A DNA stretch of 37,951 nucleotides from an uncultured Verrucomicrobiota bacterium (GTDB taxonomy: Bacteria > Verrucomicrobiota > Kiritimatiellia > Kiritimatiellales > Tichowtungiaceae): contig CAIKWE010000056.1 of NCBI GenBank assembly GCA_903831085.1, forward strand, positions 1 to 37,951. The letters run 5' to 3'. A model generated the notes under the pieces. That model saw nothing but the letters and a program-made list of their open reading frames with translations, was not told the DNA's origin and did not search any database. Positions within the stretch are counted from its first letter, which is position 1, and every line of letters starts with the position of its first letter. Position numbers and translations under genes: made by a program. Below are positions 20,244 through 37,951 of the stretch, in pieces.

Positions 20244-20290
20244 CCGAAAAGAGATGGTTCAAGTGAGGCTGGCAGGCTATGCTCACGGCC

Positions 20291-21041: not shown

Positions 21042-22484
21042 ATGTTTCGATCATTTAAATTAAAATTTGGAATCTACAGCGTCGCACTCACCGGTGTGCT
21101 GCTGATGGGCTTCAGCCTTTTCTTTTTACAGATGATCCACCGGATCGGCATTGACCGTACCGACCGCGAACTGCGCGCTCTGGTGGAAGGCAACATTCGC
21201 AGAACCCAGCCGCGCAACCATTGGGCGCGGTTTGACGGTTCAATCAAAACACTCTACGGCGACGAGGCGGATCGGCAGTTTGTTTTAAAAGTCATCGATG
21301 ACAACAACGAAGTTCTGTTTACTTCTTCGCAGTGGCCGGCCGAAGCCGCTGCTTTAAAACCCCCTGCGCCGGTCAAGAGCCGGGCGGAAGTTCCGGAAGA
21401 AGACAACCGTCCGCGCCCGTTTGATCAGCCGCAAAGGCAGCGTCCGCCGGCGCCGCCGCCGATGGAAATCAGCGGCCCGGCATTTACAACCCATGGAAAC
21501 TGGCGGCTGATGGCGATCCGCAATCCGGAGGTGACGCTGTTTCTGGGAATGAGCCTGGAGCCGGTGCATGCGGAAGTCATCCGTTTCCGCAATGCGCTGC
21601 TGCTGGCGGGGCCGGTGGCGTTGTTACTGATGATCACGGCTGGCTGGCTACTGGCGCTGATGGCCTTGCGTCCGGTACGAACCATCGCCAAGACCGTCGA
21701 AAAAATAACCGCCCGCAATCTGGATCAGCGGATTTCCGTGACGCGCGCCGACCACGAATTCCGCCAGCTCGTCACGCTGATCAACCAGATGCTCGACCGG
21801 CTCGAATCAAGTTTCCGGCAGGCGGTGCGGTTCAGCGCCGACGCGGCGCACGAACTGAAAACGCCGCTGACCATTCTGCAGGGCGAACTGGAGAACGCGC
21901 TTCAGGCCGCCGCCGACGGCTCCTCAGATCAGCGCACCTACAAGGAACTGCTCGACGAAGTTCAGCGACTGAAATCCATTATCCGCAAACTGCTTTTGCT
22001 GGCGCAGGCCGACTCCGGACAGATGGTGCTAAGCAAAGAAACCGTCAACCTGACACGCATGATCGAAGACGTCGGCGAAGACATTCAGATTCTCGCTCCC
22101 GGACTTGAGATTCAAACGGCGCTTCAGCCTGACGTAAAAATAACCGCAGATCCGGACCTGCTCAATCAGGTGATCCAGAATCTGGCGAGCAACGCGGTGA
22201 AATTCAGTCGCGGCGAACCGCCGGTTATTCTTTCGCTGAAAACCGAAGGCGACCGCGCGGTCTTCCGGATCTCCAATCGCGGCGAAACCATACCGCCCGA
22301 AGAACGCGATCAGGTTTTCGAACGCTTCTACCGCGCGAACAAATCCCGCAACCGTTCCATTGACGGCGCCGGACTCGGCCTGAGTCTGGCCCGCGAAATC
22401 GCCCGCGCTCACGGCGGCACGTTGGTGCTGGAAAACAGCGCCGCCGACCAAACGGTTTTCTGTCTGACTTTGCCATCAACTTAA
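21042..22484 (+). CDS. Sensor histidine kinase, CusS-like
   Basis: A 480-residue inner-membrane kinase. TM1 is at about 12-32. A periplasmic part of about 155 residues has an unusual Pro/Arg/Gln-rich stretch (about 118-142). TM2 is at about 187-209, followed by a HAMP domain, a dimerisation helix with phospho-acceptor His270 (SADAAHELKTPLT), an N box (NQVIQNLASNAVKFS) and G boxes (ISNRGETIPPEER, GAGLGLSLA). Architecture and motifs fit the heavy-metal sensor kinase group. The periplasmic region has no His/Met/Cys clusters, so a metal signal is not assured. Confidence 0.93.
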   Translation: MFRSFKLKFGIYSVALTGVLLMGFSLFFLQMIHRIGIDRTDRELRALVEGNIRRTQPRNHWARFDGSIKTLYGDEADRQFVLKVIDDNNEVLFTSSQWPAEAAALKPPAPVKSRAEVPEEDNRPRPFDQPQRQRPPAPPPMEISGPAFTTHGNWRLMAIRNPEVTLFLGMSLEPVHAEVIRFRNALLLAGPVALLLMITAGWLLALMALRPVRTIAKTVEKITARNLDQRISVTRADHEFRQLVTLINQMLDRLESSFRQAVRFSADAAHELKTPLTILQGELENALQAAADGSSDQRTYKELLDEVQRLKSIIRKLLLLAQADSGQMVLSKETVNLTRMIEDVGEDIQILAPGLEIQTALQPDVKITADPDLLNQVIQNLASNAVKFSRGEPPVILSLKTEGDRAVFRISNRGETIPPEERDQVFERFYRANKSRNRSIDGAGLGLSLAREIARAHGGTLVLENSAADQTVFCLTLPST

Positions 22485-22693
22485 ATAAGTTTGTGTCTCT
22501 TTCCGTCGTTTGCGTTGACGGGTAAGGGGCCGGGGACTAAGCTGACCGGCAAAACATTCACGTTTTCAAAATTGCCTGGACAAAGTGCGGAGACTGCAAA
22601 GTGATTCGACACGCCTCCACAGAAGATCAGTTGGTCGAGCGCGCCAGAGTCAGTCCGAACATCTAACGATGCGGGTTCCGAAGGATGGGAAAA

Positions 22694-23476
22694 ATGAGCG
22701 ATAGCAACAGTCCGCTTCTGCCGCATGGCGGCTATGAAAACCTGCGCGCCTATAAGGTGGCGGAGGCGGTGTATGATGCGACGGTTGTTTTTTGCGGCCG
22801 GTTTGTTGATAAACGGTCACGGACGCATGATCAGATGGTGCAGGCGGCGCGCAGTGGAGTCCGCAATATCAGTGAAGGTAGCGGTGCGGCGGCGACATCG
22901 CGTAAGAGTGAGATGCTGCTGACTAATGTGGCCCGCGCCAGCCTTTCAGATGAATTGCTCAAGGATTACAAAAGTTTTTTGACGCAGCACGGACTGCGCG
23001 TCTGGGAAAAGGATTCGCGCGAAGCGTTGGCGATGCGAGAACGGTTGAAGCACGATATTGCGCCCAATCTGCCGTCAGCCCCGGCCGGCGCGGTGCGTCT
23101 GGCCGGTCTGAACGGGCTTGCAGAATTTATCGCGCAGGCGGATGCGGAGATTGCCGGAAATGCGATGCTGTGTGCGGTGAATCAGGCGGCGTATCTTCTT
23201 CGCCGTCTGGTGGAACAACAGAGCCGGGATTTTGTCGAGCAGGGCGGGTTTACTGAGCGGCTCTATGCTGCACGGGTAAAGGCGCGTACAAAGGGTGCGC
23301 CAGCCGCTCCTCCTTGTCCGTTGTGTGGAAAAGAGATGCGGCAGCGTACCGCCGGGAAAGGCCCGCATGCAGGGTTGTCATTCTGGGGCTGTTCCGGCTA
23401 TCCGGATTGTCGCGGTGTTTTGGAAATACGGTGTGCGGACGGGTCTGACCGGTCTGACGAGCCTGACAAACAGTAG
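22694..23476 (+). CDS. Four-helix-bundle suffix protein with C-terminal topoisomerase-type zinc finger
   Basis: A 260-residue protein. Residues about 10-115 (LLPHGGYENLRAYKVAEAVYDATVVFC...ISEGSGAAATSRKSEMLLTNVARAS) match the four-helix-bundle family related to proteins encoded in 23S rRNA intervening sequences. The middle part is the suffix region. The C-terminus CPLC-(16)-FWGCSGYPDC is the C4 zinc finger found in topoisomerase I, a nucleic-acid binder. The start at 22694 is preferred over 22685 for spacing from AAGGA. The preceding 209-bp gap (22485-22693) shows no motif. A role on RNA or DNA is likely but unknown. Confidence 0.82.
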   Translation: MSDSNSPLLPHGGYENLRAYKVAEAVYDATVVFCGRFVDKRSRTHDQMVQAARSGVRNISEGSGAAATSRKSEMLLTNVARASLSDELLKDYKSFLTQHGLRVWEKDSREALAMRERLKHDIAPNLPSAPAGAVRLAGLNGLAEFIAQADAEIAGNAMLCAVNQAAYLLRRLVEQQSRDFVEQGGFTERLYAARVKARTKGAPAAPPCPLCGKEMRQRTAGKGPHAGLSFWGCSGYPDCRGVLEIRCADGSDRSDEPDKQ

Positions 23477-23597: not shown

Positions 23598-25313
23598 ATG
23601 AACTTTCGGTCACTACTGATTCCGGCGCTTATCACATCCATCGCCACGGCGGCGGATGTTCCGCAGACGACGCTGATTCCGGCGGGTAAATTCGAAATGG
23701 GCGATCATTACGGTTTCGTGGATCCCAAACACGGCGGCGACGAGACGCCGATTCACACAGTGCGGCTGGATTCCTTTTACATCGGCATTTACGACATCAC
23801 GACGGCGCAATACTGCGAGTTTCTGAATTCGGCGCTGGCGCAAAAGCAGATTGAAGTGCGCGACGGCGGAATTTATCTCGCCGGCGGAAACGATCTGCTG
23901 TGCGAAACGCGGAAAATGTCGCCGTACAGCCGGATCGACTGGGACGGCTCAATATTTTCCGTGCTCGACGGAAAAGAAAAACATCCGATCATCTGCATCC
24001 GCTGGCCCGGCGCGGCGGTTTACTGCAACTGGCTGAGCGCGCAGAAAAATCTGCCGCTCTGCTACAACACGGCGACGTGGGACTGCGATTTCAACAAGAG
24101 CGGTTACCGTCTGCCGACCGAGGCGGAATGGGAATACGCCGCGCGCGGCGGTTTACAGAATCCGTACGGCAATTTCCCGTGGGGCAGCGACGCCGACGCC
24201 ACCAAGGCGAACTGGCCCGAATCAAAAAATCCGTTCCGCGCCGGTCCGCAGCCGTGGACGACGCCGGTCGGATTTTTTAACGGGCAGTTGCAGCACAAGG
24301 CGGACTTCAACTGGCCGGGCTCTGCGGAAAGTTTCCAAACCTCGGACGGAGCGAATGGTTACGGCCTGTACGATATGTCGGGCAACGCGTGGCAGTTCAT
24401 CAACGACTGGTACGGCCGTGATTATTACGCGTACAGCCCGGCCGAAAATCCGCCCGGCCCGGCGCAAGGCAGTCTGCTGCAGGACGGCAAGCCGTATCGC
24501 GGGATGCGCGGCGGTAACTGGTACAACGGAGAGAACGGTCACGGCCGCGTGTCGAACCGCAATCCGTCGTATTACCGCGGACCGAAAGATCCGGATCATC
24601 CGTATTATCATTTGAGTTTCCGAGTCGTTCTGCCGGTTGATGCCGAGAGTCGGCCGGTGATCAAGCCGACGCCGGTGCAGAAGGTGGCGCGCGGCGGTGG
24701 CGATCGACAGAAGGGCGGCGGCGACCGCCCGGCGCGTACCGGGGTGCCGAAGCAAGTTCGCAATGATGCCGCCGCCAGCCCGGTGCAGAATAAATCTTCG
24801 TTTGTGCTGAGCAGTCCCGAAGTGGCGGACGGCGGATCGTTGCCAGCGGAGTTCACCGCCGACGGAGCCGCCTCGACGCTGCCGCTGGAGTGGAAAGGCG
24901 CGCCGGAAGGAACGAAGAGTTACGCCGTCATTATGCACCACGTGGCGCCGGACATGATCAAGTGGTATTGGGTTCTCTACAATATACCGGCGGACGTTCA
25001 GAGCCTGCCGAAGAATGTGAAGTCGGTTGGAACGCTGGGCAACAACAGCGCCAACAATCGTATCGGCTATGCTCCACCGATGTCGAAAGGACCGGGGCAG
25101 AAGACCTACATCTACACGGTTTATGCTTTGTCGGAGAAACCGGAACTGAGCGTTCCGCCGGAGCGGGTTGACCGCGACGCTTTGCTGGCCGCGATGGAAG
25201 GGCACATTCTCGCCTCGGCGGAACTGCGCGTCGTTTATTCGCGTCCGGCAGGCGTCACGACGGATCAGAAGGGCGACAACAGGGACGAAAAACGCAGAGA
25301 GGAACAGCCATGA
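23598..25313 (+). CDS. Secreted SUMF1-domain protein fused to a PEBP (YbhB-like) domain
   Basis: A 571-residue protein with a GGGAGG ribosome-binding site and signal peptide (MNFRSLLIPALITSIATAA). The SUMF1/formylglycine-enzyme-like domain covers about 22-355: IPAGKFEMGDHYGFVDP, RLPTEAEWEYAARGG, YDMSGNAWQFINDWYG, MRGGNWYNG...GRVSNRNP. The two active-site cysteines of real formylglycine enzymes are missing after RGGNW, so it is probably not a sulfatase activator. A Gly/Arg-rich linker (about 356-395) follows, including GVPKQVRND, which may come from a short dispersed repeat. A PEBP/Raf-kinase-inhibitor-like domain ends the chain (about 396-560, with FTADGAASTLPLEWKGAPEG, WYWVLYNIP and GYAPPM). 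The stop overlaps the next ATG. Confidence 0.85.
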   Translation: MNFRSLLIPALITSIATAADVPQTTLIPAGKFEMGDHYGFVDPKHGGDETPIHTVRLDSFYIGIYDITTAQYCEFLNSALAQKQIEVRDGGIYLAGGNDLLCETRKMSPYSRIDWDGSIFSVLDGKEKHPIICIRWPGAAVYCNWLSAQKNLPLCYNTATWDCDFNKSGYRLPTEAEWEYAARGGLQNPYGNFPWGSDADATKANWPESKNPFRAGPQPWTTPVGFFNGQLQHKADFNWPGSAESFQTSDGANGYGLYDMSGNAWQFINDWYGRDYYAYSPAENPPGPAQGSLLQDGKPYRGMRGGNWYNGENGHGRVSNRNPSYYRGPKDPDHPYYHLSFRVVLPVDAESRPVIKPTPVQKVARGGGDRQKGGGDRPARTGVPKQVRNDAAASPVQNKSSFVLSSPEVADGGSLPAEFTADGAASTLPLEWKGAPEGTKSYAVIMHHVAPDMIKWYWVLYNIPADVQSLPKNVKSVGTLGNNSANNRIGYAPPMSKGPGQKTYIYTVYALSEKPELSVPPERVDRDALLAAMEGHILASAELRVVYSRPAGVTTDQKGDNRDEKRREEQP

Positions 25314-26866
25314 AGAAAATACTCACAGGTCTTGGTTTAGTGATGTTGTGCGGTGTTTGCGCGACGGGGCAGCAACCGGTTCGTTCGCCGGTCACGTCAT
25401 ACGCCGATACAGTCCGGCAGCTTGGTGTGATTAAAAACACCAGCGAAGCCGCTCCGGGTTATACGCTGTTCGCGCCGAAGCATTACACGAGTATTTATCT
25501 GATGGCCAACGACGGGCAGGTTGTGAACGAATGGAAGAGTCAGTATGAACCGGGTCAGTCGGTCTATCTGCTGCCGAACGGGAATCTGCTGCACTGCTGT
25601 CTGACCAAGAACAAATCGTTTATCGGCGGCGGCGAGGGCGGACGGCTGGAAGAATTTGACTGGGAAGGGAATCTGGTTTGGGAATATGTCCTTTCAGATG
25701 ACAAAAACCTGATGCACCACGACATTGCGCCGCTACCTAACGGCAATATCCTGGCGATGGTGGTGGAATTGAAATCAATGGAAGAGGCCGTGAAGGCGGG
25801 CTTCAATCCGGAGTCGGTGAATGACAGCAAGCTCTTCCCCGACTACATCGTGGAGATTCAGAAGACCGGTCCGAAGTCCGGAAAAATTGTCTGGGAATGG
25901 CATGTGTGGGATCACTTGATTCAGGACTTCGACAAGTCGAAAGAAAACTACGGCAATGTCGCGGCGAATCCGGGAAAAATTGATCCGAACGGTTCGGGTC
26001 GCCGGGCGAAGGCGTTCTGGAATCATTTCAACTCGATCGATTACAACGCCAAGCTGGATCAGATTGTGATCAGCGTGCGCGGCAACAGCGAGTTCTGGAT
26101 TATCAATCACGGCACAACCACGGAAGAAGCCAAGGGAACAAAGGGCGATCTGCTGTACCGCTGGGGTAATCCGTCGACGTATAAGCATAGCGCGAAACAA
26201 ACGCTCTTCCAGCAGCACGATTCGCAGTGGATTGCCGACGGCTGCCCCGGCGCCGGAAATATTTTGGTGTTCAATAACGGGCTCGGCCGCGGCTATACCA
26301 GCGTGGATGAGCTGGTGGCTCCGCTCAAAGCCGACGGCACGTATGAGCAGAAGAGCGACGGCACGTACGGCCCGGACAAGCTGGTCTGGAGTTACACCGA
26401 TCCCGATCCGAAGACATTTTTCTCGCAGGAAATTTCCAGCGCGCAGCGCCTGCCGAACGGCAATACGCTGATCTGCGCGGGCGTTCACGGCACACTGTTT
26501 GAAGTGACGCCGGAAGGCAAAACGGTCTGGGAATATGTTAATCCGGTCACCACCCGCATTCTGAAGCAGGGCGACACCGTCCCGCTGGATCACCGCTATC
26601 ATGCGCAAAACGCGATTTTCAAAGCGCAACGTTACGCGCCGGATTATCCGGCATTCAAAGGCCGCGAGCTGAAGCCGCGCGGCCTGCTGGTGGAGAATCT
26701 CGAGAATCCGGTTTCGCCGGAACGCCGCGCCGACCAGGAGCACGCCAACATGAAACCGAATGAGGGCGGCGGAGGCAAGGACCGCGGAAAGGGCGGCGGA
26801 GACAAAAGCGGAGATAAACGCACTGATCGTCCGCCGCGCAGTGATGACAACAACAACAACCCATAA
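25310..26866 (+). CDS. Secreted arylsulfotransferase-family protein, type A
   Basis: A 518-residue beta-propeller protein with a signal peptide (about 1-20). The fold is marked by repeated blades such as LLPNGNLL, FDWEGNLVWEY, HHDIAPLPNGNIL and VEIQKTG...IVWEWHVWDHLIQDFD. Candidate active-site elements of aryl-sulfate sulfotransferases are present: WNHFNSIDYN (His), FQQHDSQW (His) and FNNGLGRGY (Arg). Expected reaction: sulfate transfer from an aryl sulfate donor to an acceptor outside the cytoplasm. The C-terminal 45 residues are low-complexity (Gly/Lys/Arg/Asp, ending DDNNNNP). Its sequence type recurs as the C-terminal module of the giant protein. Third-gene spacing is 6 bp. Confidence 0.83.
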   Translation: MKKILTGLGLVMLCGVCATGQQPVRSPVTSYADTVRQLGVIKNTSEAAPGYTLFAPKHYTSIYLMANDGQVVNEWKSQYEPGQSVYLLPNGNLLHCCLTKNKSFIGGGEGGRLEEFDWEGNLVWEYVLSDDKNLMHHDIAPLPNGNILAMVVELKSMEEAVKAGFNPESVNDSKLFPDYIVEIQKTGPKSGKIVWEWHVWDHLIQDFDKSKENYGNVAANPGKIDPNGSGRRAKAFWNHFNSIDYNAKLDQIVISVRGNSEFWIINHGTTTEEAKGTKGDLLYRWGNPSTYKHSAKQTLFQQHDSQWIADGCPGAGNILVFNNGLGRGYTSVDELVAPLKADGTYEQKSDGTYGPDKLVWSYTDPDPKTFFSQEISSAQRLPNGNTLICAGVHGTLFEVTPEGKTVWEYVNPVTTRILKQGDTVPLDHRYHAQNAIFKAQRYAPDYPAFKGRELKPRGLLVENLENPVSPERRADQEHANMKPNEGGGGKDRGKGGGDKSGDKRTDRPPRSDDNNNNP

Positions 26867-26872
26867 AGGAGA

Positions 26873-27352
26873 ATGAAAATGAAACGTCTAGTAATTCTAT
26901 CAGTTCTATTTACCGGCTCATTGTTTGCAGCCGAAGTCCAAAAGCCCGCTCAACCCGCTCAGGGAGAACAGCGTCAGCGCCCTGACCCGACGCAAACGGC
27001 GGCGAAAATGATGAGCGGTTTTGACGCGAACAAGGACGGCGTCCTTTCGCAGGCCGAATTGACGCTGGCGCTGGATGATATGCACAAAAACCGTCCGCAG
27101 AGACCGGCTCATCAGGGCGGAGCGTCCACCGGTGCTGTGCATCAGGCTTCCGGTCAGAGTGTTCAGGGCGAACAGCGTCCGGAACCTCCGCCGGCCGATA
27201 AGGCCGCAGCGGAAATGATCGAGAAATTTTCAGCTAACAAAACGGGTCTGACGCTGGCCGAGCTGACCAAGGCGCTTGAAGAGCGGCACAACCGGCGCAG
27301 CGGTAATCGCGGCGATCGGCAACAGCCCGTCAGTGACCAGACCGCAAAATAA
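26873..27352 (+). CDS. Secreted EF-hand protein
   Basis: A 159-residue protein with a signal peptide (MKMKRLVILSVLFTGSLFAA) and Gln/Pro-rich spacers. One canonical EF-hand calcium loop is visible, DANKDGVLSQAE (about residues 51-62). A second region, FSANKTGLTLAELTKALEE, keeps the flanking helix pattern but has lost acidic ligands. Probably a small periplasmic or outer-membrane calcium-binding partner of the sulfotransferases on either side. AAAGGAG precedes the start. Confidence 0.82.
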   Translation: MKMKRLVILSVLFTGSLFAAEVQKPAQPAQGEQRQRPDPTQTAAKMMSGFDANKDGVLSQAELTLALDDMHKNRPQRPAHQGGASTGAVHQASGQSVQGEQRPEPPPADKAAAEMIEKFSANKTGLTLAELTKALEERHNRRSGNRGDRQQPVSDQTAK

Positions 27353-27364
27353 AAGAGTTGTTTC

Positions 27365-28849
27365 ATGAAACGCCTGCTGGTTTTTGTCATCCTGATCGCC
27401 GGTTCGGTCTTGGCCTATGAAGCATTTCAAGGGCCGACCGAACTGTTATATTGGGATAAGGCAAAGACCGCAGACGGTTACACATTTTTCGGCGTGGGCG
27501 GGAAGACCTTCCTGATCGATATGCAGGGGTACGTCGTTCACACGTGGCCGATCGGAACGAATCCGCACCTGCTCGACGACGGCAGTATTCTGGACGCCTC
27601 GACGGACGATCCCAGCGGCTTCGGCGGGTTCAAGCAGATCAGTTGGGACGGCAGCAGCCTCTGGTCGTATACCGAGGCACGAACGAATTACGTTCCGCAC
27701 CACGATTTCGTCCGCATCTACAATCCAAAGCTCGGCACAAACACCACGCTCTACATCGCCAACAAAACCGTCACGTCGAATCAGTGCATCGCCGCCGGCT
27801 GCAACCCGGCTTCGGCGAGCTTCTACACCAACGCCCAGATGGATGCCATCGTCGAGGTGGACATGAGCGGAAATATCGTCTGGGAATGGTGGTTCTATGA
27901 TCATTTGATACAGGACTTCGACGCGACCAAGTCCAATTACGTCGGTTCGGGTATGAGTATTTCGAATTATCCCGGCCGGCTCAACTGCAACCTGCCGGGC
28001 CGTCCGGTTCAGCGTGACTGGCTGCACTGCAACTCGATTGATTACAACCAGACCCTCGATCAGATCGTCATCAACTCGGTCGGCGGCGAGTTCTACGTCA
28101 TCGACCACAGTAGCACATTTATTGCCGGCAATCCGACTGGCAGCGTCGCGCTTGCGGCTGGCTCCGCCGGCGACTTCCTTTACCGCTTCGGCGATCCGGC
28201 GCGTTACAGTCAGGGCAGTCCGCCATCCATCCTAACCAACTGGACTGAGTCCACCACCGGTAACAAACAGATCGGCGGCACGCACGATGTGAGCTGGATT
28301 CCAACCGGCAAGCCGGGCGCGGGACATTTGCTGATGTTCAGCAACTCGCAGAATCTCTTCGAGCACACGCAAGGTTCATACGTCTTTGAGGTCGACCCCT
28401 ATCTCAACGCGAGCACCAACAATACCGGCGCTTACGTCAACTCGCCCGCCGCTGGCTACGACACGTGGCCGACGCCCGGCCCGAACACGGACCGGGCTCC
28501 CAAGCAGATGTCACGGCAGATTGTGTGGAGCTATTTTTCCAAGGCGAGCCACGGCATGTTCAGCCACATCGGCAGCAGCGCCCAGCGGCTTGCCAACAGC
28601 AACACGCTTGTCTGTGCTGACACGGAGGGTCACATTATCGAAGTCACGCCGTCGGGCGAGGCGGTGTGGGAATATATCAATCCGGTCACCTCCGGCGGCA
28701 TCCTGAAGTTCAAGCGCGACAACTGGCCGATGTATAATTCGATTTTCCGCGCTTACCGGTATCTTGCCACAGATCCACCGCTGCTTGGCCGCATCCTCAC
28801 GCCCACGAACACGATCACCGGACGCACACCGTCGTACTACTCGCCATGA
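27365..28849 (+). CDS. Secreted arylsulfotransferase-family protein, type B
   Basis: A 494-residue exported protein (signal MKRLLVFVILIAGSVLA). It begins with YEAFQGPTELLYWDKAKTADGYTFFG and shares the propeller blades of the type A protein: VPHHDFVRIYN, WEWWFYDHLIQDFD, DWLHCNSIDYNQTLDQIVI, GGTHDVSWIP, RLANSNTLVCAD. Relative to type A, the FNNGxxRG segment is replaced by MFSNSQNLFE, so the candidate active-site Arg is missing while the histidines remain. Two CxxxxC-like Cys (SNQCIAAGCNP) are conserved with the giant. The next gene starts inside its stop codon (ATGA). Confidence 0.8.
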   Translation: MKRLLVFVILIAGSVLAYEAFQGPTELLYWDKAKTADGYTFFGVGGKTFLIDMQGYVVHTWPIGTNPHLLDDGSILDASTDDPSGFGGFKQISWDGSSLWSYTEARTNYVPHHDFVRIYNPKLGTNTTLYIANKTVTSNQCIAAGCNPASASFYTNAQMDAIVEVDMSGNIVWEWWFYDHLIQDFDATKSNYVGSGMSISNYPGRLNCNLPGRPVQRDWLHCNSIDYNQTLDQIVINSVGGEFYVIDHSSTFIAGNPTGSVALAAGSAGDFLYRFGDPARYSQGSPPSILTNWTESTTGNKQIGGTHDVSWIPTGKPGAGHLLMFSNSQNLFEHTQGSYVFEVDPYLNASTNNTGAYVNSPAAGYDTWPTPGPNTDRAPKQMSRQIVWSYFSKASHGMFSHIGSSAQRLANSNTLVCADTEGHIIEVTPSGEAVWEYINPVTSGGILKFKRDNWPMYNSIFRAYRYLATDPPLLGRILTPTNTITGRTPSYYSP

Positions 28850-31800
28850 AAAAGGTTCTAACCATTTTTGCGCTGGCGGTTCTGAGCCTCAGCGGTCTCG
28901 CGTACGAGCGGCTGCAGGGGCCGACCGGGCTGACCTACTGGGACAAAACACAGACGTTCGACGGCTACACGTTCTTCGGCGCGCAAGGCACGACGTATCT
29001 GCTCGACATGGAAGGCCGCGTCGTTCGCACGTGGCCGGTCGGCACGAATCCGCGCCTGCTCGACAACGGTCATGTGCTCGACGTCACGAATTCGACATTC
29101 CTCGAACTCGACTGGAACGGCAGCAACGTCTGGGCCTACACCGAATCGCGCACGAACTATTTTCCGCACGGCGATTTCCTCCGTATCTATAATCCAAAGC
29201 TTGGAACGAACACCACGCTCTACATCGCGAACAAAGCCGTCACTTCTAACCAGTGCATCGCCGCCGGCTGCAATCCGGCGAACGGCCCGTACACCAACGT
29301 CACGGTGGATGCCATTATCGAAGTGAACGCCGCCGGTACCGTTGTCTGGGAATGGTGTTTCTTCGATCACGGCGTGCAGGATTACAGCGCATCCAAATCC
29401 AACTATGTCTCCTCCATCTCGAATGCGACGGGCCGGATCAATCTGAATCTGCCGGGGCGGCCGCTGACGAACGACTGGCTGCACTGCGTTTCTCTCGACT
29501 ACAATCAGTCCCTAGACCAGATCGTCATCGCTGCCGAGGGCGGCGAGTTCTACGTCATCGACCACGGCGGCACGTTCACAAATGGCAGTCCGGCCGCCAG
29601 CATCGCGCTTGCCGCCGGCACGAATGGCAACTTCATTTATCGCTTCGGCGATCCGGCGCGTTACAACGCCGGCAGCGCGCCTTCGATCCAGTTGAACTGG
29701 ACCAAGTCCAGTACCGGCAGCAAGCAGATCGGCGGCGTCAGCCAGGTGACGTGGATTCCGACGAACGCGCCCGGTGCGGGACATTTCCTTGTGTTTAACA
29801 ACGGCCAGGATTTGTTCGAAACCACGCCGCAGTCGTACATTTTTGAGGTCAACGGTTACCTCAACTCCAGCACCAACGACACCGGTGCCTACGTGAATCC
29901 GCCGAATGCCGGCTACAACGCCTCGGCAGTGCCAGGCCACGACACGGACAAGGAGAAGAAAAACATTTCGCGGCAGGTTGTCTCGACGTATATGTCGATG
30001 GCCAACCAGGCGTTCTTCAGTCACATCGGCGGCAGCGTCCAGCGTCTCCCGAACTCCAACACGCTGGTTTGCGCCGCCAGTGAAGGCCACATCTTTGAGG
30101 TGACCCCGGCCTCTAATGTCGTCTGGGAGTACATCAGTCCCGTCACGACCAACGGTATCGTCACCTACAAGCGCGACAACTGGCCGCTGTACAACGCCGT
30201 TTACCGTGCGACGCGCTATAGCGCCACGCATCCGGCACTCGCGGGCCGCACACTCACCGGCTCGACCACCATCGCCGGCGGCGAGCCAGCGTACATCTCC
30301 GCGCCGACCATCAGCGGCGCAACTCGCAGTCCGGCCGCGCCGGCATCCACCAACACGGTTGTTGTCAGCGCCACGATCACCAACAGCTTGGCGGTCGCCT
30401 CCGCGATGCTGACCTACGTCGTCGGCACAAGCACCAACGCGGTCACCATGACCAACGCCGGCGCGCTGTACAGCGCCGCGATTCCAGCCCATTCCAACAG
30501 CACGACGGTACGTTACTTCATTAGCGCCGCTGACGATTTCGGCAACAGCGTCACCGATGCGCTGTATTCGTACACGGTCTATCAAAGCGTGATCGCGACA
30601 GGCGCTGTGCTCACTCAGCGTGTCTCCGGTCTCCAGTTCACCGAAGGGCCGGCCGCGGACGCAGCGGGCAATATCTTCTTCTCGGACGTCACCGCCGACA
30701 TCATCTACAAATGGTCGCTGGCGAATCAGCTCTCCGTTTTCCGCACGAATTCCGGCGGAGCGAACGGTCTCAAGTTCGACAGCTCCGGCAATCTTCTCTC
30801 TTGCGAAGGCGACAACGGCCGATTGGTTTCCATCACGCCGCAAACCAATGTCACGGTGCTAACCAGCACGTATGGCGGCCTGCGCTATAACGAACCGAAC
30901 GACCTCTGGATTGATTCGGCGGGCGGCGTCTATTTCACTGATCCGGTCTATTTCGGCCACACCGCTGTGCAGGGCGGCGAATATGTCTATTATCTCAAGC
31001 CGGATCGCAGCAGCGTGATCCGCGTCGCCGCCGACATGGTTCGGCCCAACGGTCTTGTCGGCACGTCCGACGGCAATACGCTTTATATTGCCGACTGGGG
31101 CGCCGGCACGGTTTACCGGTACAGCATCAACAGCGACGGCACGCTGACGAACAAAGCCGCGTTCGCCTCCGTGCAATGCGACGGCATGACGCTGGACGCC
31201 GAAGGCTACATCTACCTGACCGAGACTAACGTCCTCGTGTATGCCTCCACCGGCCAGCAGGTTGAGCAAATCAGCATCACAAACCGGCCCACAAATCTCG
31301 CGTTCGGTGGCAGCGACCGGAAGACGCTCTTCATCACCACGGACAATGGATCGCTCTATTCGCTTCAGATGCGCGTTCAAGGGATGCCTCTGGCCGGGGC
31401 GACCAATCAGGCTCCGGTGATCACCAATATCACGCAGTCGTCGGCTTCGCCGACCAGTACCGATCCGGTCACGATCACGGCGGTGGTCGCCGATACGGTC
31501 GCCATTGCATCGGTCACGCTCACTTATGTTGTCGGTAGCGGCAGCACCGCGACCAACACCGTTTTTCTGGAGACGATGGCGGCGACGAATACCACGATCA
31601 AACCCTGGACCGGTTTATACTGCAATAACGCATGGACCGTCACCGGCAGCAACTCGTTTGAGCAGGCAACAAGCTGGAACTACGGTTCCGGCAACGCATG
31701 CGGGATGCAATTTAAACAGGGCACAACCAGCCTGACCGGCAGTATGATCACCGCCACGGCGGCTGTCGCGGCCACCGGTAGCGCCGCCTATGCGGAATTT

Positions 31801-34800
31801 TATGTTTGGACCGACGGCATGACCACCAATGCCGGCTGGACCTTCCAGCTCAACGCGGGAACCGGCTATGTCACCCGGGTGAGCGAACTGCCCGGCACGA
31901 ATCACAGTTACCAGCTCTATCATTACAACCTGCAGTCCAGCGAGCTGGTCACCAATCTTTACCTTCGTTTTCAGTTCGCGGGCGGTGTCTCGTCGAACCG
32001 CATCGGGCTCGATCAGATCTCTCTCAAGACCGTGACGGCGGGCAGCGTTTCCTCGAATATCACGATGAGTCTGAGTAACGGCGTTTACACCGCGCAGATC
32101 CCGGCGCAGTCTCTTGGCTCCACGGTGTCCTATCACATCACCGCCTTGAATGCGTCCGGCAGCAGCGCTGTTGCCGGAGCGAGTAACGGATTGTCCTACA
32201 CCGTCAGCAGCGGCTCCAGCACCAACTGGAGCATGCTCGCGCTTCCTGACACCGGACAAACCGCCAGCTATACCGGCACGTTCGGCGAAGATTCCGATTA
32301 CGCCATTCATCCGCCGGCCTACGTCAGCAACAGCGACGGAACCGTCAGTGACAAAGTTACCGGTCTGATGTGGCAGCAGACCGACGGCGGCGAGATGACG
32401 TGGGAAAGCGCCGCCGCCTACGCGGCGACCAACAGCACCGGTGGCTACGCCGACTGGCGTCTGCCAACGGCGCACGAGTTGTACAGCATTACTAAGCAAG
32501 GTGCGGTCAACCCGGCGATCAACACGAACTACTTCGCCGTCACCGCCGCCCAGTATTGGTGGACACGCGACCAGCGGGTCGACAGTTCGAACCACATTTG
32601 GGCTGGCAACGCCGGCGGCGGCATCGGCGCGCATCCGAAGACCGAGACGATCAGCGCTGGCGGCAGTTCCCGGTTCCATGTCCGCTGCGTACGCAGCGCA
32701 CCCGCACCGTCGAGCGCCAGCCCGATTCATCACTTCGTCAACAACGGTAACGGCACCATCACCGACACCGATACCGGCCTGATGTGGCAGCAAGGCGAAA
32801 TCCCGGCTTCGACCAATTGGGAAGGAGCGCTGGCATACGCTGCGTCACTCACGCTGGGAAGCAACACCGACTGGCGCCTGCCGAATATTAAGGAGCTTCA
32901 ATCCATCAACGACGAGACGCTGGCGGCGCCTTCCGTTTCCACCGTGTATTTTCCCGGAGCCACCGCATCGCGCTACTGGTCGAGTACCAGCATGCATAAC
33001 TCGACGAACGAGGCGTGGTATCTCGATTGCCAGTATGGCATCACCACGTACGCCCTCAAGACAACGAATCTGCTGGTGCGCTGTGTACGCGGCGGCACGA
33101 CCAACATCACCAGCTCGTTCAGCGCGCAATTCGTGCGCATTCCCGGCGGCAGTTTTGTCATGGGCGATCACTTCGGGTTCGTGGATCCGGATCATCCCAG
33201 TGACGAACTTCCGCTGCACAACGTCTATATCTCGCCGCTGTATATGGACACGACGCTGATCACGGTGCGCGAGTATTGCGACTATCTCAACGCCGCGCTT
33301 TATCAGGGTCTGATCGAAGTCCGATCCAACATTGTCTATGCCGCTGGAGGCACGAACGAATATTTTTATACGTACGGCGCATCCGCTTACAGCCGCATTC
33401 AGTACACCAACGGCATGTTCGTTTCCGTGACGAATCGCGACACGCATCCGATCACCAGTGTCCGCTGGTTCGGCGCGATCGCGTACTGCAACTGGCTGAG
33501 TCAGCGCGGTGAATTCAAGCCGTGCTACAACCTCGACACCGGCGATGTGGATTTTACGAAGAATGGTTTCCGTTTGCCGACCGAAGCCGAATGGGAATAC
33601 GCTGCGGTCGGCGGCCAGACCAATCCGTACTGCATGTTCCCGTGGGGCACGAATTCCAACGCCAGCGGTACTTTTGCCAATTGGGAAAATTCGGGCGATC
33701 CGTTCGAGACCGGTGCCTATCCGTACACCACGCCGGTCGGTTTCTACAACGGCGCGCTGCGCTATAAGACCGACTACAACTGGCCCGGCAGTCAGACCAC
33801 GTACCAGACGAGCGATGGCTCAAATCCGTTCGGCCTTTACGACATGGCCGGCAACGTCTGGGAGTGGGTCAATGACTGGTACGCGACCGATTACTACACC
33901 AACTGCATCATCAGCGGCATTGTCGGCAATCCGCCCGGTCCCGCGACCGGCACGCTCTTCACCGCCTACGGCAACATCGCCTACCGGAATCTGCGCGGCG
34001 GTACGTGGTACAATGGCGGCGGACAGCAGTTCTACGGCTTCAGCCGCGTCTCGAACCGCGATCCGTCCTGGTCGCGCGGTCCGTCACCGGATGGCAACGA
34101 TATCTCCACGTGGTTTCAAGTTGGCTTCCGTATCATGCGCCCGGAAAAAATCGCGCAGACCGTCGGCCTGATGTTAAACGCAACGAACGCCTATCCCGGC
34201 TATACGCTGATGTCGCCGATACACAGCACCAACACCTATTTGATCAACAACGCCGGCCAGTACGTACATAAGTGGACCAACACCGGCGAGCCGGGCCGCG
34301 CTTCTTACCTGCTGGAGAACGGGCACCTGATGCGCGCTTGCGCTGTTCTGAGTGGCGGCCCATCGACCGGCGGCGGCGAAGGCGGCCGCATCGAGGAGAA
34401 GGACTGGCTCGGCAATCTGGTGTGGGCCATTGACTACTACAGCACGAACTACATCCACCACCATGACTTCAAGGTTCTGCCCAACGGTAACGTTCTTCTT
34501 CTTGTGGCAGAAAAGAAAACCTATGCCGAAGTCATCGCCGCCGGCTTTAATCCGGCTCTGCTGGACACGAGTATCGTCACGCAGGGCTACATGCTTCCCG
34601 ACTGCCTCGTCGAAGTAAAACCGACCCGGCCCTATGGCGGCACAGTGGTTTGGGAGTGGCACATGTGGGATCATATGATTCAGGACTTCAATCCCGCCAA
34701 GGATAACTACGGCGTTGTCAGCAACCACGTCGAACTGATCGACGTCAACGGGACCGGCCAGATGATTCAGCAGTTCTGGAACCACGTGAACGGGATCGAC

Positions 34801-36018
34801 TACAACGAGCAGTTCGACCAGATCATGCTCAGCGTCCGCAACAACAGTGAGCTGTTTGTAATTGATCACGGCACGACAACGGCGCAGGCGGCCGCTCACA
34901 CCAACGGTCTTTACAATAAGGGCGGCGACATTCTCTATCGCTGGGGCAACGCCCAGCAATATGACCGCGGCGCGAGTTCGCCCCAGCAGCTTTTCCAACA
35001 GCACCACACCCATTGGATCGCGACCAACTGTCCCGGCGCCGGACGCATCCTCATCTTCAACAACGGTATCGGCCGCGGTTACTCGAGTGTCAACGAGATC
35101 GTCCCGCCAGTGGACTCCAATGGCTTTTACTCTCGCGCGGCCAGTGCTGCTTTTGGCCCCAGCACGTCCGCCTGGACCTATGTGGGCAGCCCGGCAACGA
35201 ACTTCTACTCGGCCGAAATTTCCGGTGCCCAGCGCCTGCCCAACGGCAACACCCTCATCTGCGAAGGTGTCAAGGGCAACCTTTTCGAAGTTGCCACCAA
35301 CGGCGTGACCGTCTGGCAATATATCTGCCCCGAAGTCACTGCGCCGCTCGCTCAAGGCAGCGCCGTTCCTGCCGACCCCGGCCGCGACGGGCAATACATG
35401 AACGCCGTTTTCCGCGTCAACCGCTACCCGACCAACTTCGCGGGCTTCGCCGGCAAAGACCTTACCCCGCGCGGCACGATTGAAACCTACACCGGCGCGG
35501 CCACGGACACGGTTGGGCTCGGCTTGCCGGACACCTGGGTTCGCGCCCACTTCGGCAGTCTCTCCGCCGTCACCGCCACCAGCAGCCACTCCACTAACGG
35601 CCTGACGGATATCCAGGAATACAACTATGGCCTCAACCCGACGGCGTGGTCATCCCTCACCAACGGCATTCCCGACGGCTGGGCCATCAAGTACGGCTTC
35701 GACCCCACGGTCACCGGGTTCGGCGCGGTCACCGCCATGAATGGCAACACCATTCTCCAATGTTATCTCGCCGACCTCAGCCCCGCCAACGCCGCCTCGC
35801 GCCTCGCTGTCACCGATCTCAGCATCGTCGGCAACGACGTCCGCCTTACATGGATCGGCGGATCGAATGCGTGGCAATATCTCGAATGTTCCGGGAACCT
35901 CGCTTCCAATCAATGGAACGTTATTTACACAAACGTTCCGCCTACAGCCGTCACCAATTCTGTTATTCAACCCGGCGCATCTAGCAAACAGTTCTATCGG
36001 ATCAAGGCGGGGAGGTAA
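28846..36018 (+). CDS. Giant secreted multidomain protein (arylsulfotransferase B + SMP-30 + 2x DUF1566 + SUMF1 + arylsulfotransferase A)
   Basis: A 2390-residue protein with a signal peptide (MKKVLTIFALAVLSLSGLA). Modules with approximate residues: type B sulfotransferase 20-485; Ig-like linker 486-580; SMP-30/gluconolactonase-like propeller 582-845 (FTEGPAADAAGNIFFSD, EPNDLWIDSAGGVYFTDP, RPNGLVGTSDGNTLYIAD); a second Ig-like region with a jelly-roll-like insert 855-1120; DUF1566 1132-1285 and 1294-1419 (TGLMWQQ...DWRLP...VRCVR in each); SUMF1 1425-1769; type A sulfotransferase 1772-2219. The C-terminus 2222-2390 has LPDTW...TDIQEYNYGLNPT and IPDGWAIKYGFDP units and an Ig-like end (LTWIGG...FYRIKAGR). 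The N-terminal module has lost two histidines kept in its 27365 homologue (HHDF to HGDF; GGTHD to GGVSQ). The C-terminal module keeps the NH, QQH and NNGIGRG elements. Both SUMF1-type cysteines are absent. Confidence 0.85.
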   Translation: MKKVLTIFALAVLSLSGLAYERLQGPTGLTYWDKTQTFDGYTFFGAQGTTYLLDMEGRVVRTWPVGTNPRLLDNGHVLDVTNSTFLELDWNGSNVWAYTESRTNYFPHGDFLRIYNPKLGTNTTLYIANKAVTSNQCIAAGCNPANGPYTNVTVDAIIEVNAAGTVVWEWCFFDHGVQDYSASKSNYVSSISNATGRINLNLPGRPLTNDWLHCVSLDYNQSLDQIVIAAEGGEFYVIDHGGTFTNGSPAASIALAAGTNGNFIYRFGDPARYNAGSAPSIQLNWTKSSTGSKQIGGVSQVTWIPTNAPGAGHFLVFNNGQDLFETTPQSYIFEVNGYLNSSTNDTGAYVNPPNAGYNASAVPGHDTDKEKKNISRQVVSTYMSMANQAFFSHIGGSVQRLPNSNTLVCAASEGHIFEVTPASNVVWEYISPVTTNGIVTYKRDNWPLYNAVYRATRYSATHPALAGRTLTGSTTIAGGEPAYISAPTISGATRSPAAPASTNTVVVSATITNSLAVASAMLTYVVGTSTNAVTMTNAGALYSAAIPAHSNSTTVRYFISAADDFGNSVTDALYSYTVYQSVIATGAVLTQRVSGLQFTEGPAADAAGNIFFSDVTADIIYKWSLANQLSVFRTNSGGANGLKFDSSGNLLSCEGDNGRLVSITPQTNVTVLTSTYGGLRYNEPNDLWIDSAGGVYFTDPVYFGHTAVQGGEYVYYLKPDRSSVIRVAADMVRPNGLVGTSDGNTLYIADWGAGTVYRYSINSDGTLTNKAAFASVQCDGMTLDAEGYIYLTETNVLVYASTGQQVEQISITNRPTNLAFGGSDRKTLFITTDNGSLYSLQMRVQGMPLAGATNQAPVITNITQSSASPTSTDPVTITAVVADTVAIASVTLTYVVGSGSTATNTVFLETMAATNTTIKPWTGLYCNNAWTVTGSNSFEQATSWNYGSGNACGMQFKQGTTSLTGSMITATAAVAATGSAAYAEFYVWTDGMTTNAGWTFQLNAGTGYVTRVSELPGTNHSYQLYHYNLQSSELVTNLYLRFQFAGGVSSNRIGLDQISLKTVTAGSVSSNITMSLSNGVYTAQIPAQSLGSTVSYHITALNASGSSAVAGASNGLSYTVSSGSSTNWSMLALPDTGQTASYTGTFGEDSDYAIHPPAYVSNSDGTVSDKVTGLMWQQTDGGEMTWESAAAYAATNSTGGYADWRLPTAHELYSITKQGAVNPAINTNYFAVTAAQYWWTRDQRVDSSNHIWAGNAGGGIGAHPKTETISAGGSSRFHVRCVRSAPAPSSASPIHHFVNNGNGTITDTDTGLMWQQGEIPASTNWEGALAYAASLTLGSNTDWRLPNIKELQSINDETLAAPSVSTVYFPGATASRYWSSTSMHNSTNEAWYLDCQYGITTYALKTTNLLVRCVRGGTTNITSSFSAQFVRIPGGSFVMGDHFGFVDPDHPSDELPLHNVYISPLYMDTTLITVREYCDYLNAALYQGLIEVRSNIVYAAGGTNEYFYTYGASAYSRIQYTNGMFVSVTNRDTHPITSVRWFGAIAYCNWLSQRGEFKPCYNLDTGDVDFTKNGFRLPTEAEWEYAAVGGQTNPYCMFPWGTNSNASGTFANWENSGDPFETGAYPYTTPVGFYNGALRYKTDYNWPGSQTTYQTSDGSNPFGLYDMAGNVWEWVNDWYATDYYTNCIISGIVGNPPGPATGTLFTAYGNIAYRNLRGGTWYNGGGQQFYGFSRVSNRDPSWSRGPSPDGNDISTWFQVGFRIMRPEKIAQTVGLMLNATNAYPGYTLMSPIHSTNTYLINNAGQYVHKWTNTGEPGRASYLLENGHLMRACAVLSGGPSTGGGEGGRIEEKDWLGNLVWAIDYYSTNYIHHHDFKVLPNGNVLLLVAEKKTYAEVIAAGFNPALLDTSIVTQGYMLPDCLVEVKPTRPYGGTVVWEWHMWDHMIQDFNPAKDNYGVVSNHVELIDVNGTGQMIQQFWNHVNGIDYNEQFDQIMLSVRNNSELFVIDHGTTTAQAAAHTNGLYNKGGDILYRWGNAQQYDRGASSPQQLFQQHHTHWIATNCPGAGRILIFNNGIGRGYSSVNEIVPPVDSNGFYSRAASAAFGPSTSAWTYVGSPATNFYSAEISGAQRLPNGNTLICEGVKGNLFEVATNGVTVWQYICPEVTAPLAQGSAVPADPGRDGQYMNAVFRVNRYPTNFAGFAGKDLTPRGTIETYTGAATDTVGLGLPDTWVRAHFGSLSAVTATSSHSTNGLTDIQEYNYGLNPTAWSSLTNGIPDGWAIKYGFDPTVTGFGAVTAMNGNTILQCYLADLSPANAASRLAVTDLSIVGNDVRLTWIGGSNAWQYLECSGNLASNQWNVIYTNVPPTAVTNSVIQPGASSKQFYRIKAGR

Positions 36019-36020
36019 TC

Positions 36021-37177
36021 GTGAAAACATGGGTTGTAAATCTAAGCATCGTGCTACTCGCCGGGATCGGTTTCTGCGCCGAGAAGCCGTACGTCGTCGT
36101 CGGCACCGGCCAGACGAAGTGTTATGGCGACCGCGGCGAGATCGCGGCACCGCAAGCGGGACAGCCGTTCTACGGTCAGGACGCGCAGTATCCGGAACCG
36201 ATGCCGAACTATAAGGACAACGGCTACGGCACGGTGAGCGATCTTAATACAGGGCTGACCTGGGTGAAGGCGCGCGGCGAAAAATTTCATGGGACACCGC
36301 CGTTTCGGGCGCGAAGGCCTGCCGTGTTGGCGGCTATGACGACTGGCGGATGCCGACGATTAAGGAACTCTATTCGCTGATCAACTTCAACGGCGGTTGC
36401 GCCGGCACGGTGGCCAGCTCCACGCCGTATATCGACACCAAATATTTTGACTTCGTTTACGGCGATGAATCCAAAGGCTTTCGTATCATCGACTGCCAGG
36501 ACTGGTCGGCGACGGAATACATCGGCAAAACAATGCGCGGCAACACCACAGCCTTTGGCGTCAACTTTGCCGACGGCCGCATTAAGGGATACCCGAAGAG
36601 TTTTCCTAACGGCAAAATTGCCGCGATGTACGTCCGTTATGTTCGCGGCAATCCGGACTACGGCAAAAACGATTTCAAAGATAACGGCGACGGCACGGTC
36701 ACCGACCGTGCCACCGGTTTGATGTGGCAGCAGGACGACAGCGGCAAGGGGATGAACTGGCAGGAAGCGCTGGCGTGGGTTCAGAAAAAGAACTCGGAAA
36801 ATTATCTCGGGCACAATGACTGGCGGCTGCCCGATGCCAAGGAACTTCAGAGCATCGTGGACTATTCATCGGTTCCGGCAATCAATCAGAACTTTTTGAA
36901 GATGAGCGACACGAATGCGTGGTACTGGACGGGCACATCACACCTTGAGGGTCCGGTCGACCGGCGCGGCAGTGCCGCCGTTTATGTTGCGTTTGGCAAA
37001 GCCACCGGATGGATGAAACTGCCGCCGTCATCAGAAGAGTATAAACTGCTCGACGTACACGGAGCCGGAGCTCAACGCAGCGATCCGAAGATTGGAAATC
37101 CCTACGACTATCCGCACGGCCGCGGTCCGCAGGGAGATGTGATTCGTATAAATAATTTTGTCCGTCTCGTGCGGTGA
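36021..37177 (+). pseudogene. DUF1566 (Lcl C-terminal-like) secreted protein, interrupted by a one-base frameshift
   Basis: A GTG start at 36021 behind GGGGAGG gives a signal peptide (MKTWVVNLSIVLLAGIGFCA) and a first DUF1566 half to GLTWVKARGEK, then goes out of frame. The next frame continues WDTAVSGAKACRVGGYDDWRMPTIKELYSL and a full second DUF1566 copy (TGLMWQQDDSGKGMNW...DWRLPDAKELQS) to 37177. One extra A in the AAAAA run at about 36279-36283 restores the frame. The whole gene would be about 385 residues. It begins 2 bp after the giant gene. A sequencing or assembly error in the A-run is as likely as true inactivation. Confidence 0.75.
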
Positions 37178-37299: not shown

Positions 37300-37951
37300 A
37301 TGCGAAAGATCGTAGCCCGGGTCGCGCTAGTCACGCTGTGTGAAGTTCTGTTTGCCGGCCATGCGGCGGCGCAGCAGTTTTCTGGATCGATTGTGCTCGG
37401 CCGTCCGACCGGTCACTCGATCACCGTCAGCGTACTGGCGAGCAACGATCTGCAAATGTATCTGGAATACGGCTTGTCATCGGGCGTCTATTCCTATCAA
37501 ACCGCTGTCACAAACCTCACCGCCAACCAGCCGCTGGATGTGGAGTTGAGCGGCCTTCAGACGAATACGTGTTATTACTACCGGCTACAGTACAAGGGTA
37601 CCGGAGATCCAGCATATCTGGCAGATACGGAGCACACCTTCCACACGCAGCGGGCTCCGGGCAGCACGTTCACCTTTTCTATACATGGTGACACCCACCC
37701 CGAGCGTGCGGGCAGCATGTTCAACGCCAGCCTCTACACCAATACGCTGACCCGTGCTGCGGCGGACAAGCCCGACTTCTACATGCTGATCGGCGACGAT
37801 TTCAGTGTGGACAACATTCCCACCAACAGCATCAATGCTGATCTTGTTGCAGCCAGATACACGCTCCACCGGCCGTGGCTGGGGCTGGTCGCCAACTCCG
37901 CATCGCTGTTTCTGGTCAACGGCAATCACGAACAGGCCGCTCAATATCTGC
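37300..37951 (+). CDS. Secreted PhoD/calcineurin-like metallophosphoesterase, N-terminal part (runs off window)
   Basis: The open frame from the ATG (strong AAGGAGG at 37287-37293) runs to the window end, 217 codons. The signal peptide ends near FAGHAAAQ. Residues about 27-105 form a fibronectin-III-like domain (TVSVLASNDLQMYLEYG... TNLTANQPLDVELSGLQTNTCYYYRLQYKG), as found before PhoD-like phosphoesterase domains. The catalytic domain then begins: FSIHGDTHPER (GDxH metal site), YMLIGDDFS (GDD metal site), FLVNGNHEQ (GNHE). It is expected to hydrolyse phosphoesters in the periplasm. It is separated from the sulfotransferase operon by 122 bp with its own operator-like box. Confidence 0.85.
   Translation, partial: MRKIVARVALVTLCEVLFAGHAAAQQFSGSIVLGRPTGHSITVSVLASNDLQMYLEYGLSSGVYSYQTAVTNLTANQPLDVELSGLQTNTCYYYRLQYKGTGDPAYLADTEHTFHTQRAPGSTFTFSIHGDTHPERAGSMFNASLYTNTLTRAAADKPDFYMLIGDDFSVDNIPTNSINADLVAARYTLHRPWLGLVANSASLFLVNGNHEQAAQYL

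Follow-up and report, generated by a model that had tools for sequence, protein, structure and literature searches.

A recurrent gene set linking an arylsulfotransferase-type propeller to a cysteine-less FGE-fold partner, in operons and in giant multi-module proteins

INTRODUCTION

Why should one protein of 2390 residues carry modules that the genes around it encode separately, and what might such a set of parts do? The locus raising this question lies in the window, our term for the whole stretch of DNA analyzed, which is the whole of contig C56 (37951 bases) from a genome of 2.14 Mb in 60 contigs. A first-pass annotation had read the arrangement as an undescribed secreted sulfate-transfer machine, with the giant protein as scaffold plus one active end.

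The enzyme type in question is partly understood. In AssT, His436 carries the sulfuryl group, and His252, His356, Asn358, Arg374 and Thr501 surround it; the natural acceptors and cellular role of PAPS-independent aryl sulfotransferases are described as mostly poorly understood (PMC13426309, available excerpt). Arylsulfotransferase genes have been recorded as single genes in MAGs of Hydrogenedentota and Sumerlaeota (PMC10866078, available excerpt), and PF03781 has served as a marker for the formylglycine-generating enzyme, FGE (PMC9723792, available excerpt). These single-gene catalogues of sulfated-EPS cycling report arylsulfotransferase genes or PF03781; the cassette and giant treated here are absent from the excerpted parts of both.

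RESULTS

A tight operon contains the giant gene

All genes of the set lie on the forward strand. The leading gene (23598..25313; start codon our choice) encodes a SUMF1/FGE-fold domain (PF03781, 142 bits) joined to a PEBP domain (PF01161, 83.2 bits), with a signal-like N-terminus. It is followed by a free-standing ASST-fold protein, A (25310..26866; PF05935, 100.2 bits), a small protein with a signal-like N-terminus and a weak EF-hand (26873..27352; PF00036, 17.7 bits, under the cut-off of 25.4), a second free-standing ASST-fold protein, B (27365..28849; PF05935, 49.3 bits), the giant (28846..36018), and an Lcl_C/DUF1566 gene (36021..37177; Pfam Lcl_C) split by a frameshift. From the FGE–PEBP gene through the Lcl_C gene, neighbors overlap by 4 bases (twice) or are separated by 2, 6 or 12 bases; on this spacing, they very likely form one operon. 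The single-gene list of the first-pass annotation thus holds in Pfam for SUMF1–PEBP, A and B, whereas the EF-hand stays sub-threshold and the DUF1566 gene is frameshifted. In the latter, frame 36021–36380 supplies the start and signal-like N-terminus and frame 36350–37177 the remainder. The frameshift may be genuine or introduced by assembly; two-Lcl frames without a break are known from L055 and L075, among other loci.

At the contig end lies the 5′ part of a metallophosphoesterase-type gene (37300..37951, + strand; PF16656, 20.4 bits, under the cut-off of 30), overlooked at first pass, which clusters with metallophosphoesterases that recur beside the module set. In the same genome, positions 1–12000 of contig C60 (G000:C60:1-12000, locus L121) hold a second giant-type chain at the contig start, reading phosphoesterase–MID–phosphoesterase, as well as another B, two phosphoesterases and a sulfatase on the opposite strand. 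Contigs C56 and C60 may adjoin, end to start, and L121 may continue the window operon.

Upstream, also on the forward strand, are a response regulator (20279–20971) and a histidine kinase (21042–22484), typed by reading their translations; they might regulate the operon. The kinase belongs to a two-component cluster drawn from 18 sources, and a member of this cluster occurs <8 kb from A on the same strand in 11 of the 76 loci described below. Just upstream of the operon, a 263-aa protein (22685–23476) shows an odd pairing of a sub-cut-off match to 23S rRNA-intervening-sequence proteins with a topoisomerase-type C4 zinc ribbon.

Modules of the giant

The giant starts with ATG, has a signal-like N-terminus and was parsed from the ORF translation with Pfam and our own profiles. 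Pfam finds ASST (two stretches), SGL/SMP-30, two Lcl_C and FGE-sulfatase in it, all over curated cut-offs, which confirms the chain of B, SMP-30, two DUF1566, SUMF1 and A described at first pass. The full order is a B module (28918..30273); an Ig-like repeat; an SMP-30/gluconolactonase-like propeller (30625..31377; PF08450, 122.5 bits); a second repeat with a CBM-like jelly-roll, called MID, as insert (residues 917–1073, 31594..32064; AlphaFold and Foldseek); two Lcl_C/DUF1566 domains (32320..33096; PF07603, 168.6 bits over two stretches); an FGE-fold domain (33130..34143; PF03781, 143.7 bits); an A module (34201..35475; PF05935); and a C-terminal domain, CT, common to other giants (residues 2216–2390, 35491..36015; own HMM). 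The jelly-roll and the C-terminal domain had been missed before. 'Ig-like' is our reading of the repeat, with no database match behind it. Residues 486–590 match two separate pieces within 845–1150, so that the second repeat appears to be interrupted by the CBM-like domain.

Identities between giant modules and their operon neighbors are 62% for B, 48% for A, 49% for SUMF, and 38% and 44% for Lcl. The earlier claim that the operon encodes the giant's modules as separate genes therefore stands for ASST(B), DUF1566, SUMF and ASST(A); SMP-30 has no such relative there.

The A module retains most of the AssT active site

Residues were tabulated over distinct A, B and SUMF modules, with seven loci that duplicate the window excluded, along with fragments of <250 residues; the selection for trees was stricter. 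A belongs to the Pfam ASST family and has the ASST fold. A profile of 38 A rows matched AssT (3elq) with an E-value of 1.4e-7 and with five active-site residues aligned. These five (His252, His356, Asn358, Arg374 and His436; HHNRH) are kept in 93 of 101 A modules, including both A modules of the window, and the nucleophile equivalent to His436 is kept in all 101. The stretch with the His252 equivalent, the second H of HHD, scores -1.5 bits, so this one assignment comes from a weak alignment plus near-invariance. Four of the eight departing modules read HHNHH, two HHNQH and one HHNFH, and one has a gap; all eight lie outside SUMF-containing chains.

The sixth AssT residue is not kept. The Thr501 position is Ile in 96 of 101 A modules; Thr501 is listed for AssT in the available excerpt of PMC13426309, and need not define the family. 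Moreover, Glu217 and His223 (giant A numbering) are invariant in A and absent from AssT at the aligned positions. Given the Ile and these added residues, the chemistry of A may differ from that of AssT.

AlphaFold modeled the SUMF–A segment of the giant with a pLDDT of 89 and a pTM of 0.64; the latter does not fix the predicted arrangement of SUMF relative to A. The best Foldseek match to this model was the sulfotransferase Cpz4 (E = 4e-16), with FGE (1.7e-14) and AssT (4e-10) also matched. A matches in fold two PAPS-independent enzymes, E. coli CFT073 AssT (PDB 3ELQ) and Streptomyces Cpz4 (9KF6), and keeps the five residues above when aligned with AssT, the only one of the two so aligned. It differs from them in lacking Thr501, in its extra invariant His and Glu, in sequence (12–17% identity to solved sulfotransferases) and in setting, being linked to FGE-fold, PEBP and phosphoesterase parts and fused into chains of up to 3678 aa.

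The FGE-fold module lacks the catalytic cysteines

The SUMF module has the Pfam family (PF03781) and the fold of the formylglycine-generating enzyme, SUMF1. The catalytic, copper-binding Cys pair of FGE, which we take to sit just after RGGS, is C336 and C341 in the human enzyme (PDB titles), and profile alignment to FGE 2q17 fixes the RGGS position in the SUMF modules. In the 34 residues from RGG, 77 of 81 SUMF modules have no Cys, four have one and none has two; most read RGG-x-W-(Y/F/W)-N-G where FGE has its pair. Unlike FGE, then, the cassette module is without the catalytic pair in 81/81 cases, and a working FGE was rejected. The SUMF1 domain, once taken as a sign of sulfate chemistry, gives no evidence for it. 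Three other places in the same genome have an FGE domain; the segment was examined in two, and neither has the pair. The modules were also compared with the T9SS proteins PorK/GldK in NCBIfam, where they scored 77 and 75 bits against a cut-off of 350.

B modules diverge when built into chains

The free B of the window reads HHNVH, with Val at the Arg374 position, as do 46 of 49 free copies; among copies in multi-module chains, 6 of 16 do. The nucleophile His is lost in 9/16 chain copies versus 1/49 free copies, counts in which the sequences are related and the events not independent. The giant's own B reads GHVES at the five AssT positions by residue alignment, with the nucleophile lost. A C-terminal A reading HHNRH and an N-terminal B reading GHVES are what the earlier 'scaffold plus one active end' would predict, and the residues favor that description.

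Glycan-, ester- and phosphate-side parts

MID has no Pfam match. AlphaFold predicts a jelly-roll (pLDDT 84, pTM 0.83). Among its PDB matches, Foldseek ranks carbohydrate-binding modules, which the titles assign to families 4, 16 and 22, in the first ten places (E = 6.9e-5 for the best), at a weak TM of about 0.5–0.6; reelin repeats, gingipain adhesin domains and others come later in the list. Relatives of MID recur in multi-module chains, with 20 copies >100 aa in the 76 loci. Among 58 near genomes, MID occurs in two (the source genome and G053), in long frames. The second MID of the source genome (residues 573–732 of a 1386-aa frame at the start of C60) lies between two metallophosphoesterase motif sets.

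The tandem DUF1566/Lcl_C domains are shared in type with the Legionella collagen-like protein Lcl, which binds sulfated glycosaminoglycans and whose DUF1566-bearing domain is C-type-lectin-like (PMC11162425, available excerpt). By eye, however, the giant's translation has no collagen-like repeat, and its two DUF1566 domains are chained to enzyme-like modules.

Among metallophosphoesterase frames over a 150-bit floor, 55 of 62 from other loci have all three motifs, DxH..GD, GNH(D/E) and GH(D/E)H, and several of the seven misses are short. Pfam Metallophos is found within giants L015 and L122 (45.5 and 40.2 bits; cut-off 21.5). The sulfatases have C-x-P-x-R in 17 of 18 frames listed; in several loci the gene lies 3′ of B, between B and the phosphoesterase, and one is present in a genome of the same genus (L120). 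Ten sulfatase frames have GEGHGW and CTP(S/T)R (L016, L045, L060, L063, L066, L067, L068, L075, L078, L092).

The window PEBP scores 83.2 bits in Pfam PBP (cut-off 24) and 56.8 in NCBIfam TIGR00481, narrowly under the 57.75 needed. Across 30 aligned PEBP modules, the core consensus is IMHH..P...KWYW, which differs from the DPD-type motif known for PEBP. A conserved family of ∼550 aa also stands beside the cassette (L065:4307-6178, L032:2025-3719, L021:7114-8802). Three members were scanned in Pfam; LTXXQ was just over the cut-off in one, under it in another and absent from the third, no other Pfam family matched, and the L065 member had no NCBIfam match.

The set recurs in several phyla, in permuted order

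A scan of one genome per species returned 446 relatives of A, and the best 80 of the 446 gave 76 loci. Profiles made from the modules of the window and from related sequences served to count parts anywhere in each locus, and the counts are conditional on A and on high identity to it. Among these A-selected loci, the SUMF subfamily occurs in 69, B in 46, metallophosphoesterase in 46, Lcl in 35, PEBP in 27, LTXXQ-like proteins in 16, sulfatase in 15 and SMP-30 in 11. A relative of the EF-hand protein is found in only two, and for this gene chance placement is still possible. By record title, the loci come from Bacteroidota, Verrucomicrobiota, Lentisphaerota, Planctomycetota and others; some titles (beta proteobacterium, Bathyarchaeota) may reflect binning errors. 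The linked set foreseen at first pass thus recurs across phyla.

Loci of Verrucomicrobiota, Lentisphaerota and Planctomycetota frequently run SUMF-PEBP, A, B, (sulfatase), phosphoesterase, (Lcl pair). Bacteroidota have B, phosphoesterase, Lcl-Lcl-SUMF, A, with variants. Giant chains, taken as those that join SUMF and A to one or more other modules, were counted in 14 of 76 loci and have their modules permuted; this count omits L024, whose third module is a phosphoesterase profile match at the edge of a 995-aa frame. The window order, B-SGL-MID-LCL-LCL-SUMF-A-CT, is shared with genome G172 (L124, 2440 aa). Others are B-LCL-LCL-SUMF-SGL-MID-A (L016), B-B-MID-A-LCL-LCL-SUMF-SGL (L043, L065) and B-MID-MPE-MID-MPE-MID-SUMF-A-CT (L015, L122). 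Pfam scans of six giants (L012, L015, L016, L043, L122, L124) confirmed FGE, A-type ASST, and phosphoesterase or Lcl plus SGL; MID and CT are recognized by our own profiles only, as is B where Pfam gives a single ASST stretch. The SUMF-then-A order noted at first pass is indeed the same in the two forms in the window, but it is not universal, since A comes first in L017, L024, L026, L043 and L065.

SUMF and A are tightly linked

A search of 387 genomes of the phylum with the SUMF profile gave 19 places among the matches listed; weaker ones may be missing here and in the A search below. All 13 at E ≤ 2e-133 lie <1 kb from an A match, and the six weaker places (5e-52 to 9e-42) have no A match on the contig among the matches listed. 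The A profile found 31 places, again among the matches listed. Each of the 13 with E ≤ 1.2e-175 is partnered by SUMF; eight of the other 18 are B-type modules of such loci or of C60, and ten are without a listed SUMF match. Within the 76 loci, SUMF lies <4 kb away on the same strand for 83 of 91 A modules. Four of the eight exceptions (L036, L050, L053, L054, L062 twice, L067 and L071) are ∼600 bases or less from an end of the locus sequence, namely L036, the 3′-end copy of L062, L067 and L071.

The strong SUMF–A pair is present in 9 of the 387 genomes (among the matches listed) and A in 2 of 14 genomes of the genus, which marks the cassette as an accessory trait. Sulfatases occur in 40 of 43 genomes of the order, and among the matches listed their number per genome does not mark cassette carriers; it was dropped as a correlate.

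A and SUMF trees do not support a recent fusion of the neighboring genes

Trees were run in quick mode, with SH-aLRT support only. In the A tree (101 rows, 100 of them different), the giant's A falls in a supported clade of 17 rows, all SUMF-fused, adjoining L004, and the operon A falls in a separate supported clade, where most of the 35 rows have SUMF-PEBP either next to them or on the same chain. The SUMF tree likewise places the giant's module in a 15-row clade of A-bearing chains and the operon's in the SUMF-PEBP clade. Identities agree: the giant is 81% identical to L004 in A and 83% in SUMF, versus 48–49% to its neighbors. L004, the nearest relative, has no SMP-30 or Lcl module. For A and SUMF, then, the different clades argue against a recent fusion of the neighboring genes, and the earlier picture of a giant assembled from them is not supported. 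For B, both window copies sit in one supported 11-row set, with L004 nearest to the giant's B, and the history of this module is less clear. By these trees, two older A/SUMF lineages coexist in the window, as also in L014, L015, L033, L061 and L065. The first-pass annotation had named two signs that would together speak against a linked system. One, modules nearer to distant proteins than to their neighbors, is seen for A and SUMF; the other, an association unique to this genome, is contradicted by the distribution.

DISCUSSION

A candidate sulfuryl-transfer cassette

Our main reading, to which we give a probability of roughly 0.5, is that operon and giant would form an extracytoplasmic, PAPS-independent sulfuryl-transfer cassette acting on a polysaccharide or other surface polymer, with A as the catalyst. 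We infer the reaction, what it acts on and what SUMF, B, PEBP and SMP-30 do from the conserved linkage, the tight operon with its domain content, the residue patterns, the signal-like N-termini and the predicted folds. The A residues, the SUMF–A linkage, the fold match to Cpz4 and AssT, the glycan-type domains and the ester-side genes all favor it. Against it stand the Ile at the Thr501 position, the extra invariant His and Glu, and a phosphoesterase three times as frequent as the sulfatase.

In this scheme, the ASST-type propeller A would load a sulfuryl group onto its invariant His and deliver it to an acceptor. As a partner that lacks the FGE cysteines and accompanies A in nearly every case, the FGE-fold domain could serve in docking or substrate presentation, and the Lcl_C and CBM-like domains may anchor the chain to glycan. 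Free B would be a paralogous propeller whose chemistry is altered, with Val in place of Arg374; B built into a giant may often be a structural part only. The metallophosphoesterase and, in some operons, the formylglycine-type sulfatase would trim phosphate or sulfate esters of the same target. In the giants, joining of the parts would leave a single active end, A, on a long binding scaffold.

The recurrence of the same kit in distant phyla points to an uncharacterised extracellular machine, perhaps acting on polysaccharide sulfate groups. More broadly, and more speculatively, the cassette might be an ester-exchange machine outside the cell, patchy in PVC, FCB and other phyla and perhaps spread by gene transfer, in which an ASST-type propeller is routinely teamed with a repurposed, cysteine-less FGE-fold partner, and in which the parts (propellers, lectin-like and CBM-like domains, phosphoesterase), recombined repeatedly between operon and giant forms, rewrite polysaccharide sulfate and phosphate groups. 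Polyketide synthases, with their discrete and assembly-line types, would offer a parallel for the two forms.

Alternative explanations

The same parts could instead belong to a phosphate- or metal-linked envelope system, in which the His-rich propeller centers are metal sites, and phosphate esters or metals are the ligands or substrates of the ASST-like propellers, PEBP, EF-hand or LTXXQ-like proteins and metallophosphoesterase. We regard this as doubtful, while noting how much of the set it accommodates: WDH is present in 101/101 A and 64/65 B modules (one gap) and IDH in 99/101 and 63/65; metallophosphoesterase (46/76 loci) and LTXXQ-like proteins (16/76) are set against sulfatase in 15/76; the PEBP core has MHH in the 30 modules aligned; and two-component genes lie nearby. 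It sits poorly with the AssT-like residues of A, nucleophile included in 101/101, with a sulfotransferase as the nearest solved fold, and with the shared-motif sulfatase found between B and the phosphoesterase in several loci. We think it unlikely that the giant serves chiefly in adhesion or in a matrix, its enzyme-like modules now binding scaffolds and the linkage that of co-secreted surface proteins. Such a role would suit the missing cysteines (81/81 FGE-fold modules), the loss of the nucleophile in chain B (9/16 versus 1/49 among related sequences) and the binding-type Lcl_C and CBM-like domains; yet A is intact in SUMF-containing chains, the eight non-HHNRH copies all lying elsewhere, and most copies of the phosphoesterase and the sulfatase keep their motifs.

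Chance co-location has to be considered because the module families of the cassette are common in secretomes, and sulfatases are present in nearly every genome of the order (40/43). Even so, as an account of the set it is highly improbable: loci span Bacteroidota, Verrucomicrobiota, Lentisphaerota, Planctomycetota and others by record title, and among the matches listed for the 387 genomes the six weaker FGE matches are without A on their contigs and 13/13 strong SUMF places adjoin A. For the SUMF–A pair, this last count rules chance linkage out.

Known families, new linkage

Each family is known; the linked set and the giant chains were not met in print. Open-licence PMC text, including the available part of PMC11576661, yielded no description of them, with one broad query that could not exclude one; to that extent the earlier statement that the set is undescribed as a system stands.

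The findings bear on how such genomes are read. Because 81/81 modules are without the FGE cysteine pair, PF03781 is a poor marker of sulfatase maturation in them, and its use could count Cys-less modules as FGE. A cassette whose glycan-binding-type parts and esterases are linked to the enzyme, sometimes in the same chain, offers testable candidates for acceptors and partners. Finally, the module permutations amount to a natural experiment in how the parts of an operon turn into one chain.
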